A stretch of DNA of 64,000 nucleotides from Acarospora socialis. Its lineage: Eukaryota; Ascomycota; Lecanoromycetes; Acarosporales; Acarosporaceae. The notes under the pieces are model-generated. The model was not told the origin of the DNA. It did not search any database and was given only the letters and a program-made list of their open reading frames with translations. Location of the stretch: NCBI GenBank assembly GCA_025617375.2, contig JAMYGW020000010.1:1364001-1428000 (forward strand), in the 5' to 3' direction. Of this stretch, positions 30,861 through 38,231 are shown piece after piece; the stretch's first letter is position 1, and every line of letters begins with the position of its first letter. A program made the translations under genes and the position numbers.

Positions 30861-33832
30861 ATGGATTCTGTAGCGTCTGAAGATGATTATGTGCCCATTT
30901 TCTTTGTCGGACAACATGAAAGCAAGCGCGCTCTGTCAGTCTCTGCTGATGTGCTTCGACAGGCGCAAGAGTGTAACGTGAGTAATCTCCTACCACTTCC
31001 TAAGAATTTCATACTGACGGTTTCTACAGTATGACATGCTTACAACCCCAATAACGACTCCATACTTTCAGAGCAGAGTTTTAACTCTTCTATCTTCACA
31101 TACCTCACAATCAAGCTCCCACGAGTCACACGGCAGTCTATCAAACTCCCTGACCAACGTGCCTCTCTTGATACCACCATTGGGACCGTCAGACACAGCG
31201 ATCACCCCTAACGAAATCATTTCACAGCTTCTTGCAGTCGCTTCTCCTTGGATCGACCTCTGCTCTCCAGATCCAATGATCCAAAATATATCCCAGCAAG
31301 TCTTAAGTCTGGAAATCGCCTATGCAGCCTTCTGTGGGGTCGGAAATGTGATAATAGCAGGCCCAAAGCTGCGTCATGGCAGAGTGCATGGGGACGCCTT
31401 GGTGCAATATGCGCGCGCCATATCCGAGGCGTTGAGTATCGCAATCAACCTACAGATTGAGATTTTATTACCTATGACAGACCCGCCAGGATCGGATGTC
31501 GATGACAGTATGGGGAGTCTTACGCAACTAGCACGAGACGAATATGTTGGAGACCTACGAACGGACACGGCTCGGAAGCCGGATATGTATGGGTCTTGGG
31601 ATGCTTGGCATGTTATCCGCACTGTGTGTAGATATAATCCACGGCTGTTTGTAGGTAAGCATAAGAGGGGTTCCAATATATGTTCACTGTATATCAAACG
31701 ACCTTCTACAGAATTGAAGCTGAGAACACCCCTCGCTCCTTTCTGTCTCGCAGAATCTCCATCAGGTAGTTCAAGCATGAAGAGTCTGGACGTGATCTAC
31801 CAGAACTTGAGCCCTTCTGTTATTTACTAGAAAGCCGGCCTAGAGCTTTTCAAACCCTATACTGACGTTAGATACAAGCACTCTCCCTTCCTCGGCATCT
31901 ACCACCGCTCCCGATTCAGTCTCGATGGTATAGCGAACCCCTCCGGCTCCTTTCGATAGCCTCCAACTCCTTTCTCAAAAATCCTAAAGGCTACCCGGTG
32001 CTCTCGAAACCGCATCAGGCGCTCATTGCACGCTACATGCGGCTTCGTGTACCCCCATGGATCCTTTTATGCGACGTCGGCCCTATCCCCGGCCTAGACA
32101 ACCCCGAGTCGATCTTCACTATCGCGGATGGTTCTCTGAGCCCAAGTGCCGCAGCCGATGCAACTACTGGGAGCTCCGCTTCCCCAACCCCTTCTGAAGT
32201 TCCGAAGCAGACAAAAAGCCAGAGTAAGAAGTTCCACGATCCGACGCCGCACCTCTCCTACATCCGCAACCTTCAGCGCAGGCAGCCGCCTCGGACTATA
32301 ATCGAGCGCTTCGGTGCCGGCTTCCAAGATTATCTCCAATCGCCTCTACAGCCACTTACCGACAATCTGGAAAGCAACGTATACGAGGTATTCGAAAAAG
32401 ATCCCGTCAAATACGATTGGTACGAGCGGGCGATTGCACGCGCTCTCAGTGACTGGGCCGAGCAGGAAAAGCCTACTTCGGGTCCTGACGGCAGGGTCGT
32501 TGTGGCCGTTGTTGGCGCAGGAAGGGGTCCACTCGTTATGCGGGCATTGCAGGCTAGCCTGTCCACCGACGTACCGATCGAAGTATGGGCAGTGGAAAAG
32601 AACCCCAACGCTTATGTTTTACTACAAATGCATAATCAAAATGAATGGCTTGGCCAAGTTAACGTCGTCAAGTCCGATATGCGCGCATGGAAGGGCCCAT
32701 GGCGAGAAGGCGATCACAACGCGCAAGCACCCATATATTCTGCAGATACCAATACCTCTTCTACCCGTACCAGGGAGACACCTTCCTCCGTCATTGACCT
32801 CCCCGACCAAAGCGAGTCCGCCTCAGCCTCGCAACTCACCCCGCTCCCAGACCGCTCAGCAAGCTACGGCCACGTCGACATCCTCATCTCCGAACTCCTC
32901 GGCTCCTTCGGCGACAACGAGCTCTCTCCCGAATGTCTCGACGGAATCCAGCACGTCCTCCACCCAACCCACGGCATCTCCATCCCATCCGCCTACTCCG
33001 CCCACCTGACCCCGATCTCCGCCCCCAAACTGCACGCCGACATCGCCGCCCGCACCCTAACCGACCCCTGCGCGCCCGAGACGCCCTGGGTCGTAATGCT
33101 GCACGCCATCGACTACCTCTCCACCACCACCACTCCCGTCCCCGCCTCCGCCTCCGCACCCGCACCCGCATCCTCCCCGTCACCCTCAGCACCGACACCG
33201 ACACCCACCGTCCACACAGCCTGGACCTTCACGCACCCGCTGCCCGCCGCCCTCTCCACGCCCGGCACCAACGCGCACAACGCGCGCTACGCCCGCCTCT
33301 CGTTCCGCTGCCGTGAGCGCGGCGTCTGCCACGGCCTGGCGGGCTACTTCGAGACCGAACTTTACTGTGGCGTCGAACTGAGCACCAACCCAGTCACAAT
33401 GAGCCAGAAGAGCGCGGACATGATCTCTTGGTTTCCAATCTTTTTTCCGCTGAAGGTATGTGTTCTTTCCTTCCCTCCCATCCTCATTTCCTTCCCTTTC
33501 CCTATGACTCTCCTTTCTGTCTTATGTACATCACGCATCGCAGCGCACCCCACCCCACCCCACCACTCGTCCTCCCCCCCAGCTACTTAGAGCATATACT
33601 AACCACCTTCCCCCGTGTCCCGGGGCCGTGTATCATACAGACACCACTCTACTTCCCCGACCACTCGGAGTTAGAAATCAGCATCTGGCGGCAGACGGAC
33701 GACCGCAAGGTGTGGTACGAGTGGATGGTCGAGGCCTTCGTCTTCACGGCGCTGCTGGGCGGCGAGAAAAGGAGGGTCCGGCTGGGTGTGTCGGATCTGC
33801 ATTCGAGTCGCAAGAATGGGTGTTTGATGTGA
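30861..33832 (+). CDS. skb1: Type II protein arginine methyltransferase (PRMT5/Skb1/Hsl7)
   Basis: PRMT5 makes symmetric dimethylarginine on histones and Sm proteins and in yeasts tunes the G2/M kinase Swe1/Wee1. Four exons, 836 aa. Introns: 30978-31029, 31655-31878 (224 nt) and 33456-33640 (185 nt). The TIM-barrel half spans about residues 1-280 and ends 'RWYSEPLRLL', 'KGYPVLSKPHQALI'. The methyltransferase half has the SAM motif 'VVAVVGAGRGPLV', the double-E hairpin 'SELLGSFGDNELSPE' and the C-terminal barrel 'TPLYFPDHSELEISIWRQ'. An unusual Ala/Pro/Ser/Thr-rich insert of about 35 residues (33120-33230) interrupts the C-terminal barrel. The 224-nt intron contains an internal acceptor and donor that could define a 54-nt in-frame cassette exon. 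Confidence 0.93.
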
Positions 33833-34260: not shown

Positions 34261-37200
34261 TCACGTAAGCGCATTCTCCAGTCCGCGGACGACCGTCTCG
34301 TCAAGAAGTCCATCGCTCGACTTGCTTGACCCGTTGGCCATGGCCGCAGCCTTCGCAGCCGGGTTATTATCCGAGCCTGTAAGACCTTTCCGAATAGCGA
34401 GGACATTGTCAACGATAACCGCGTCGATGCCTTCCTTGACTTGCAGCTTCAGGGTTGTCAGCTTGGCCTCCTTGCCAAACGGTTGTAGTGCATGGACATA
34501 CCTTGACTTTGTCCGGGTCATTATTCATAGCTCCGTACGACACGCACACCAACCCCGACTCCTTCACGACGCGCACGAGCCGAGGGCTGATGACCAATGG
34601 CTCGGCGGCCGAGACGATGCCGAGCAAGTTCCAGCGCGAGGCGAAGCGGATGGCCTCTTGGAGGCTGCTGGCTCGGATATCGCCGACGGGGCTGGTGCCG
34701 GCGTCGGTCAGGAACAAGATGGGGATGGAAGGCTGCTTGAAGGAGAGGAGGAGACAGATGTCCGGGTTGAAGCTGGAGAAGATGACGTTGCGTTTCTTGC
34801 CGAGGTCGTAGACTTTGGTTAGAACGGTGTCGACGAACGAGTTCAGCTCGACCGCGTACGTGTCCATTTCTTGTTCCTCGCTTTCATGAAGCATTGGGTA
34901 TTCTGCAGGCTGATCAGTGCCTGCTGCAATGTAACTGTGAGGTGCATGTTCGTTGCTTACTCATTTCGATGTTGAACCCGATAGATTCCGGAAGCTTCTT
35001 GAACATCTCCTCCAGAGTCGTAAAGGGCGCTTGGATAAAGTTGCCTCTGCTGTTGCCCTTGAAACCTTTTTGCTTGAAGTCGCGAGTGTGTTTCATGCGT
35101 TCGCTCATCTCCGAAGAGTCATCGTTCGTGGTTGTGCCAAGGGACATTGACCGGTGTCTCCGGTTGTCCCCTCCCTTCACATTTTTGATCCTCGGATCCT
35201 GTGTCTGGTCTGGTGAAGCTGGTCTAGAAGATCTCGGGGTGCGGTTATCACTGACGTGCAAAAACTGCAAGCGAGAATCAGCAAAGATTGATCGCAAACA
35301 TGTTACGAGGATTGTAGGAGGGAAATCAACCTGCTCTAAGGTAAGGGTGTGAACAGGAGCGTCAATGCCAGTTTCGCTAACTAGAAAGTCATGATATATG
35401 ACAGGAACGTGGTCCTTGGTCAACTGTACATCTGAGAAGGATCAATATCGTAATCATTCGCAGTAGGGTGCTATACAGTATTACCGAACTATCATCAATT
35501 AGTATATTGAAAGCGTTTGGGCAATTTGTGCTTACCTCAACGTAAGAAGCCCCAAGATTGGCGGCAGCAATAAACGACTAAAAATTAGCATTTCCTTATA
35601 GTCACATAGTTGAATCTGCTTACCTGTATCGTGTTCTCTCCCAATTGAAGCGATTTTCGAGCGGCCATATTCTTACCCAATCCTTCACAGCCGTTAGGGT
35701 TACAATAAGGGAAGAGAACATAAATGCAAAATCACCTCGGTGCCCAATGACCATCGTCGTCGTCATGCTCTTCCAGTAAGTCTGATTCTCGGTAATAGAC
35801 ATATTGGGGTGCGTGAACGGCGTGATGATCAAGAAGTTGAAGCTGACGGATCCTATCACCTCCAAGGTGTTGGCCGCTATGATGGGCACTGTATTGTCCA
35901 CTTGCAGCGTGATACGTTTTGATCCAAGGTTGGGTTTGACACTGGATAGTAACGCAACCCCACGTCCCACAATGTGATCCTTCGACCCCGCATAAGTGGG
36001 CACAATGTCAAATAGCAACCTGACCTTCGATGCATCGGCAGTGGTGAACACTATTTGGTCGGTGCTAACATTGTCTTGGATGGGAAGATCAATGATAGAT
36101 GGCTCACCGCTGGCTCCGCTGGCTGAAACCACGATCGACAGAGCAGTGTCGAGTTGAGTAGAATGAGCATCCGCGAGAGGAATGCGGTCAAGTTTCACGG
36201 CCTCTACCGTCTTCCTCATGTCCATTGAACCCAAGCTTACGAGGACCATGCTCTCGTTGGTAAGGTATCGATGACCAAAGGTTTTAACTGGCTCTGTGAT
36301 TCGAACAGTGCCATTTGCGTTGCTGGCACCGGATTTGCGGTCGGCCAAGGAGAGTGATGATGATGGAGGAGAGGAAGCCAGAGTAGACGTCTCGGAATCA
36401 GAAATATCGGGTGCTGTTGTCAGCTCCGCAAGCTTCTTCGCGATCCCCATGTGACCCCTCAGCGAAGCGTGTTCTTTCGATGTCCAGCCGGAAAGATCGG
36501 GTCTCTCAAGGTCAGCTCCTGCGTCTACCAAAAGTTCGACAATTGGAAGATGCCCATCGACACTGGCAACGAATAGTGGCGTCCAACCAAACGTATTCTC
36601 TGCCAACTCCGTGTCGGCCCGTTGATCTTTGGTGCCATCAAGAAGTAGTTTGGCGCATCTCTCATGCCCGAACCGAGCTGCCACATGCAAGGCGGTCTCT
36701 CCCTGCTCATCCTGGTAGTTGATATCAACTCCTGCTTCAACGAGCAGATGGACAATGACGACGAAATTCGCCTTCGTCGCCAAAGCTAAAACCGCACTGG
36801 ACTTCGAGACATGCTTCCGCACGGTTTGTTTATGGTCAGTGGCACCTCTCCAATTCTCGGCCTCGAGCAGTGCCTTCGTCGTCAGAGGATGGCCCCCTAT
36901 GACACTAAGATGCAACGGCGCCAGTCCTTCCGAGTCTTGCCAAGCGGGCGCATCAATCCCATCTGCGACGTCAAATTGGTCCCATAACTGCATATGTTGT
37001 ATGATTATCTCGCATATTATGACAAACCCGTACTGCGCTGCATAATGTAATGGCATACGGCCATAGCTATCTCTCGCTTTGAGAGCTCCTCGTTGTTCAG
37101 GACGTAGCCTATCCAAGAGGAACTCCAGCAGCTGCACGGATCTGTCGTCAATCCCTAGTAATTTAACTCCATCGGGCTCTTTCTTCATGTACGCCTGAGA

Positions 37201-38231
37201 GGTGAGAACTGGTAACGCTGCAGGTGTGATGTAATTCGCATCTTCGTCATTAACCTGAAGCAATGCATCTGCTGCAGGCTCGGTGTCACCGGCAGACTTT
37301 GAACGTCCGATGGTGATGACTAGGCGATGTATGCAGTTACGGTCATTGAGATCATCCTCCTCATCCAGAGATCTTATCAGACCGAGGAGCTTCTCGATAC
37401 ACCCTTTTGCTTGACATGAAATGGCGCGTTGCAAGAGGTTGAGTAAGAGTGTTTGAAAGATAGGCCCATTTGGGTCTTCAGAACCTGTATTAGCCTCCGG
37501 TAGGAGCTCAAGAATGATAGAAGCGTCGTCATTGCGTATCGCACGGTCAACAGTATCTAGAAGACCTGGTGGCAGATTCAATATAGCCTTCGACGAAACC
37601 CTCCGAATGGAGTGAGACGACCGAGACGAACTCGCATCACTCAATACCTTCACATCTCCAAGGGTAGACAGCCAAGCATTGATTGTGTTCATCGCTTCGG
37701 ATAGTCCCACATTCGTTGCGAACGGCTTAGGGTCGACCTTCGATTCAAGGTAGCGACGCTGCGCACAGGCGTTTGGAATCTGCTTATCCAGTTTCTTCGT
37801 AATCTTGATGAAGCCTCGACGGTTGACCTCCCCATACCATTGCAATTTCCTAAGCTCGCTGCGCAGTTCAAGTAGGGCACCCATAAAGTCCTCAACCTCA
37901 TCTTTGTCCATGCCCTCCGGAACCACGGTTGGTTTTCCATAACGGTCTTGCAGGAGCTTCAGCCGCCGTGCAGATTCATTGAATTTCTTATTGTAAAAGG
38001 CATGAACGTCTTCGAGGTTTCGATCGAGGGAATAGAAGAACTCTAGGGTATGCGTTAGTATGCTGTGTGCACCTCAACGATGTTTCCAAGCCCACCGGCC
38101 AGGTCTGCTTCCCCTCCATGCTTTACGGTTTCCGCAGCAGACTTGATAAGCTTCTTCAATGCCTTGTAATTGATGTAAGATGCAGACCACTCCGGGACCT
38201 GATTGCGAGGTAGGTTTCGGCCGAACTTCAT
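34261..38231 (-). CDS. GDE1: SPX-ankyrin-GDPD glycerophosphodiesterase (Gde1/Pho81-like)
   Basis: Predicted to hydrolyse glycerophosphocholine to glycerol 3-phosphate and choline, with the SPX domain sensing inositol pyrophosphates. Nine exons, 1179 aa. Introns: 38043-38095, 35683-35735, 35578-35623, 35489-35535, 35432-35484, 35265-35330, 34903-34960 and 34447-34501. SPX (about 1-170) starts 'MKFGRNLPRNQVPEW' with 'YINYKALKKLIK'. Ankyrin repeats lie at about 290-520 ('GETALHVAARFGHERCAKLL', 'GWTPLFVASVDGHLPIVELL'). The GDPD domain (about 810-1150) has 'VIGHRGLGKN', 'GENTIQSF', 'YVEFDVQLTKD' and 'YHDF', so the catalytic His and acidic residues are present. The motif YVEFDVQL is encoded across a 4-nt microexon (35488-35485). 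Start at 38231 because SPX must begin at the N-terminus. Confidence 0.94.

Follow-up and report, generated by a model that had tools for sequence, protein, structure and literature searches.

The window analysed here (64,000 nucleotides of the Acarospora socialis genome) contains on its minus strand a nine-exon gene, GDE1, the product of which is predicted to be a Gde1-type glycerophosphodiesterase. Removal of its eight GT-AG introns (53, 53, 46, 47, 53, 66, 58 and 55 nt) leaves a single frame of 1179 amino acids, and the gene very probably includes an exon of only four letters, TTCG, without which a metal-binding residue of the active site would be lost. The features of the gene are as follows, in the direction of its transcription; exon boundaries apart from those of the microexon were set from the frame and the splice signals.

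34261..38231, minus strand: whole GDE1 coding region, nine exons, 1179 amino acids, SPX-ankyrin-C2_GDE1-GDPD
38231-38096, minus strand: exon 1
38042-35736, minus strand: exon 2
35682-35624, minus strand: exon 3
35536..35577, minus strand: exon 4, 42 nt, SFIAAANLGASYVE, ending in GTT GAG (...TTACGTTGAG at 35536)
35489..35535, minus strand: predicted intron 4, 47 nt, GTAAGC...GATAG, branch motif CTAAT, whose A lies 10 nt before the intron end
35485..35488, minus strand: predicted exon 5, the 4-nt microexon TTCG
35432..35484, minus strand: predicted intron 5, 53 nt, GTAATA...TCTCAG, branch motif TTGAT, whose A lies 10 nt before the intron end
35331..35431, minus strand: exon 6, 101 nt, the final two bases of an Asp codon and then VQLTKDHVPVIYHDF...
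35424..35425, minus strand: alternative AG acceptor; an intron from the donor at 35535 to this site would be 112 nt long and in frame, with FDVQ deleted
35264-34961, minus strand: exon 7
34902-34502, minus strand: exon 8
34446-34261, minus strand: exon 9

The first-pass annotation had named the gene GDE1, and the name is borne out by Pfam matches to SPX (79 bits), Ank_2 (99.2 bits), C2_GDE1 (180.1 bits) and GDPD (187.3 bits), all above cut-off, the last spanning profile positions 1-242 of 244. The order of these domains, with SPX at the N-terminus, ankyrin repeats in the centre and GDPD at the C-terminus, is the layout of fungal Gde1. Downstream of GDE1 and on the opposite (plus) strand, window positions 31018-33590 hold long open frames, which we take to resemble the arginine methyltransferase PRMT5.

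The active-site motif of GDPD enzymes is described as HR...EN...E-x-D...HD (PMC4926365), and the spliced GDE1 protein possesses the corresponding series GHRG, GENT, YVEFD and YHDF, in which E-x-D is present solely when TTCG is an exon. According to the same source, the metal of ttGDPD is bound by Glu44, Asp46 and another Glu, and alanine at any one of these positions inactivates the enzyme; the split motif had been said to contain catalytic residues, which agrees with the metal-binding role reported for the E and D of E-x-D. The EFD of GDE1 is equated with these metal-binding acids through the common E-x-D motif. In Schizosaccharomyces pombe Gde1, likewise an SPX-ankyrin-GDPD protein, the active-site Glu and Asp are needed for function: the E845A-D847A mutant is reported to behave like a deletion in an inositol-pyrophosphate toxicity assay (PMC8749416), in an account that, as far as its accessible text goes, mentions no microexon. 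The argument that the A. socialis microexon is essential, because the E and D of E-x-D bind metal, is therefore sound, given the deletion-like behaviour of the S. pombe mutant.

The predicted exon 5 and its flanking introns

Upon re-reading of the sequence, introns at 35535-35489 and 35484-35432 and the exon TTCG between them were found exactly where they had been placed from first inspection, and both are GT-AG introns with usable branch points, as had also been proposed. Exon 6 starts with ATGTACAGTTGA at 35431 and reads AT GTA CAG TTG, so that the joined codons GAG/TTC G/AT GTA CAG TTG specify E F D V Q L within the stretch YVEFDVQL; TTCG itself comprises the whole Phe codon but, of the Asp codon, the first base alone, so that it does not encode both residues. 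Intron 4 has a second, overlapping TTGAT with its A 6 nt from the intron end, and intron 5 has a donor (GTAATA) without G at +5 and a 3' end that reads TTGAT-TCCTTCTCAG. Each of the eight GDE1 introns has a YTRAY motif, the A of which lies 7-13 nt before the intron end. The AT content of the GDE1 introns is 57%, against 48% in the exons, and that of the two introns flanking the microexon is 66% and 60%. By size and splice signals (a microexon being an internal exon of no more than about 30 nt), TTCG is a putative microexon, with its 4 nt lying between GT-AG introns that carry branch motifs.

Alternative gene models were enumerated between the anchors NLG upstream and HVPVIYHD downstream, allowing one or two introns of 30-150 nt with GT or GC donors and AG acceptors and demanding an open frame. 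There are 33 such arrangements (14 with a single intron, 19 with two), 13 of which have no GC donor (7 with one intron, 6 with two). E-x-D is retained in just one of the 33, the pair of introns around TTCG, which upholds the statement that no other arrangement yields the motif; a single intron preserving FD, which would have spoken against the microexon, is absent from the 14 single-intron arrangements. With a nearer VQL anchor, which leaves out the acceptors at 35424 and 35415, 27 arrangements are open and the same one alone keeps E-x-D. Among five splice forms compared, the full 1179-aa frame is obtained solely when TTCG is an exon, and retention of intron 4, intron 5 or both leads to a stop. 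Skipping of the microexon had been said to give a stop within three codons, which is true of the exact skip, 35535-35432 (EMYS-stop), but does not extend to seven single GT-AG introns with other ends, which stay open and among which 35535-35424 stands out.

Against the Pfam GDPD profile, the microexon product scored best of the six (out of 33) that were compared, at 191.9 bits, followed by a GC-donor product (EVN) at 183.3, a product with FGNT at 175.1, the FDVQ deletion at 170.2, a 16-residue insertion at 165.3 and a larger deletion at 154.8. In five of five PDB alignments, the best five of 12 matches, the E-F-D of the query is matched without a gap to E-(L/I/F)-D. The 4-nt exon is the best gene model found, and as a gene model it can be accepted with high confidence.

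The chance of finding such an arrangement was gauged with dinucleotide shuffles of the 104-nt gap, its ends fixed. E-hydrophobic-D was restored by a 4-nt exon in 20 of 20,000 shuffles in one run and in 139 of 200,000 in another, the latter count falling to 2 when branch motifs were demanded in both introns as well; these counts are guides rather than strict p-values because the criteria were chosen after the sequence had been seen. In 572 of 20,000 shuffles the gap contained some AG/4 nt/GT whose introns measured 35 nt or more; by themselves, therefore, splice signals of this kind are no rarity, and specificity comes from the E-x-D motif.

Splice sites were also modelled. In 264 kb of the genome, strict patterns between coding-like flanks yielded 55 putative introns versus 7 in a reversed control, with a median of 59 nt when lengths were restricted to 40-99 nt, and the lengths of introns 4 and 5 (47 and 53 nt) fit these pattern-defined introns. 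A higher coding threshold gave 32 versus 1, and another run of fixed patterns at the loosest threshold gave 45 versus 3. The self-trained models were less satisfactory. The first, which put the acceptor of intron 4 at the 1st percentile and the donor of intron 5 at the 3rd, converged on coding-like G-rich sites; another was left with 4 junctions; and the last, which scored introns 4 and 5 at 9.0 and 10.3 (38th and 66th percentile), a rival intron at 35489-35432 at 9.6 and the exact-skip intron at 11.6, drifted to 400 putative introns versus 188 in the reversed control. The two scored models are unfavourable or neutral to the microexon, and were judged unreliable because they settled on coding-like sites or gave reversed-control sets nearly half as large as the real ones; the fixed patterns did better.

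Several other readings of the interval were considered. A single 112-nt intron, 35535-35424, by which TTCG would be no exon and the protein would read YVE/LTKD without FDVQ, leaves an open frame and has a GTAAGC donor and a CAG acceptor. It is very unlikely nonetheless: the metal-binding Asp is lost, the family score falls to 170.2 from 191.9 bits, the length exceeds that of every intron of the GDE1 gene model (46-66 nt, n=8), and the TTGAT-TCCTTCTCAG acceptor 8 nt upstream would have to be skipped. Still less probable is a single 58-nt intron, 35489-35432, with the donor GTTCGG, for which intron 4 would be read through to place 16 residues where FD should be. Its length is usual, its frame is open and its score in the unreliable self-trained model (9.6) is close to the 9.0 of intron 4, but it has T at donor position +3, loses the Asp and matches GDPD in two separate stretches (165.3 bits), and the insert that it retains holds a whole intron, including donor, branch and acceptor. 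A GC-AG intron at 35531-35432, which preserves frame and length as YVEVNVQL and has the second-best family score (183.3 bits), seems equally far-fetched since it replaces the catalytic Asp by Asn, and it would be 100 nt long with a GC donor that has no counterpart elsewhere in GDE1.

The split motif might instead be an artefact of assembly error or belong to a decaying gene copy, an explanation that can be given hardly any weight beside the intact remainder of the 1179-aa frame, a gap made up of two complete introns, and the fact that no single-base change could undo the split. The 20-base junction sequence has one match in the assembly at up to two mismatches (a backward control likewise has one), and therefore no second copy is there to confuse. 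Adjacent short introns in a fungus also bring to mind a stwintron, an arrangement known from fungi (PMC6616335) in which one intron lies within a splice element of the other, and which here would remove TTCG along with both. The probability of this is close to nil: each intron is complete on its own, the two are adjacent rather than nested, and loss of TTCG leads to a stop or to the absence of FD. The reading that TTCG is a genuine, constitutive 4-nt exon of GDE1, with the adjoining short introns removed in turn and YVEFDVQL restored, is highly likely.

Other GDPD genes and very short exons in the genome

A GDPD family search of the genome identified one further gene, on contig C6, which has the motif AIETDIHL within a single open frame. 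A protein search identified an additional locus on contig C2 (L013 1779-4031), a 751-aa open frame, presumably Pho81-like, with ankyrin-like and GDPD-like sequence. HRG, E-x-D and HD are absent by eye from the matching places of this frame, which is uninterrupted there, and its GDPD part seems no longer to carry the catalytic motif. Of these three GDPD-type genes, only GDE1 has a split motif.

Other very short exons may be present. On the minus strand of the window, a 28-nt exon at 52674-52647, flanked by introns of 44 and 47 nt, encodes the Walker A sequence GPPGVGKTAT of what we take to be an AAA-type ATPase gene, apparently a further case within the window of a very short exon that carries a catalytic motif. 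Beside the GDPD gene of contig C6, an apparent tubulin gene (L012 2703-2710) has a first exon of seemingly 8 coding bases, ATGCCTAG, as judged by eye. A scan for exons of up to 30 nt in 264 kb (C10:1164001-1428000, which takes in the window), with a coding flank of 75 nt demanded, gave 25 candidates versus 13 in the reversed control in its relaxed double-intron form, and 5 versus 1 in its strict form, at least one of the five being a mis-split 28-nt exon. The relaxed result is a weak hint of more very short exons in the genome. The GDE1 microexon itself was missed, probably because the 42 nt of exon 4 fall short of the 75-nt flank, and the scan is therefore silent on how common such exons are. 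Other searches included one for the actin family, aimed at exon lengths in further genes, which gave 19 matches, and two for relatives: a pattern scan of viral contigs gave 5 matches, one of which has a relative over 28 residues, and a scan of genome contigs matched 58 stretches, none of them a relative.

Proposed splicing and relation to known microexons

The sequence of the microexon, its frame, its uniqueness, its fit to the family and its splice and branch motifs are established here, and from them we infer that TTCG is really spliced, that its inclusion is constitutive and that its introns leave in a certain order. Introns as short as these suit recognition across the intron, for which a long exon is not required. 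GDE1 would accordingly present two ordinary short GT-AG introns, 4 nt apart, each recognised across the intron. Four nucleotides would hardly accommodate the complexes of the intron 4 acceptor and the intron 5 donor at the same time, so that the introns would be removed one after the other. Intron 4 would probably be removed first, because it has the better donor (GTAAG) and a CTAAT branch, which would fuse TTCG to exon 4. By the time that intron 5 was removed, the microexon would be part of a normal exon and intron 5 an ordinary intron, and the product would have the GDPD sequence Y-V-E-F-D-V-Q-L restored with its two metal-binding acids.

Fungal exons this tiny are already known, and GDE1 illustrates them well and sets a trap for annotation rather than revealing a new mechanism. 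The basidiomycete Phlebia radiata likewise has, between short introns, coding exons that do not exceed one codon and can be as small as 2 nt (PMC6540522). They are described in a genome-wide remark on gene models that in its accessible portion does not mention GDE1, whereas the present analysis works out a catalytic motif along with its in-frame bypass. Cytochrome P450 genes of another basidiomycete, Phanerochaete chrysosporium, also have tiny exons between introns of about 45-55 bp (PMC1184071), but the shortest is described as 6 bp, compared with 4 nt in GDE1. The switch-like microexon of Trichoderma virens Xlr2 was missed by annotation and is required for a functional domain, as is predicted here; it has been shown by RNA and is regulated by glucose (PMC11121469), whereas the GDE1 microexon is predicted from sequence and is not known to be regulated. 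Microexons of 4 nt in animal MPC1 (PMC9929638) and in a rice gene (PMC8831610) are, like that of GDE1, not a multiple of three and required for the frame, and both are reported with experimental proof. The Arabidopsis APC11 exon (PMC4674806) resembles the present reading in being constitutive, shorter than a codon and a half, and missed by annotation, although it is of 1 nt, from a plant, and experimentally shown. Iso-Seq is reported to be worse than RNA-Seq at very short exons (PMC11590231). Literature searches combining microexon with GDE1 or with glycerophosphodiester, with most subscription papers outside their scope, found no report of the GDE1 exon, which may nevertheless be in print; the second led only to work on mammalian organs.

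It is unlikely that the microexon is a regulated switch, its inclusion yielding the active enzyme and its bypass, in frame, to the AG at 35424 yielding an SPX-ankyrin protein of full length but without catalytic activity. If it were, the inactive form could act as a sensor of phosphate or inositol pyrophosphate, and a single gene would, through splicing, supply both an active Gde1 and an inactive counterpart resembling Pho81. Under the favoured reading of a constitutive exon, GDE1 is a clean case of homology pinning down an ultra-short exon, and may serve as a natural substrate for studying how splice sites 4 nt apart get used in turn. Automatic annotation may well show 35535-35424 or the 58-nt intron 35489-35432 instead, and the error would likely be silent, as an in-frame single-intron model drops a catalytic residue without shifting the frame. 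Surveys that call fungal GDE1 proteins active or dead from annotated sequences could therefore be misled.
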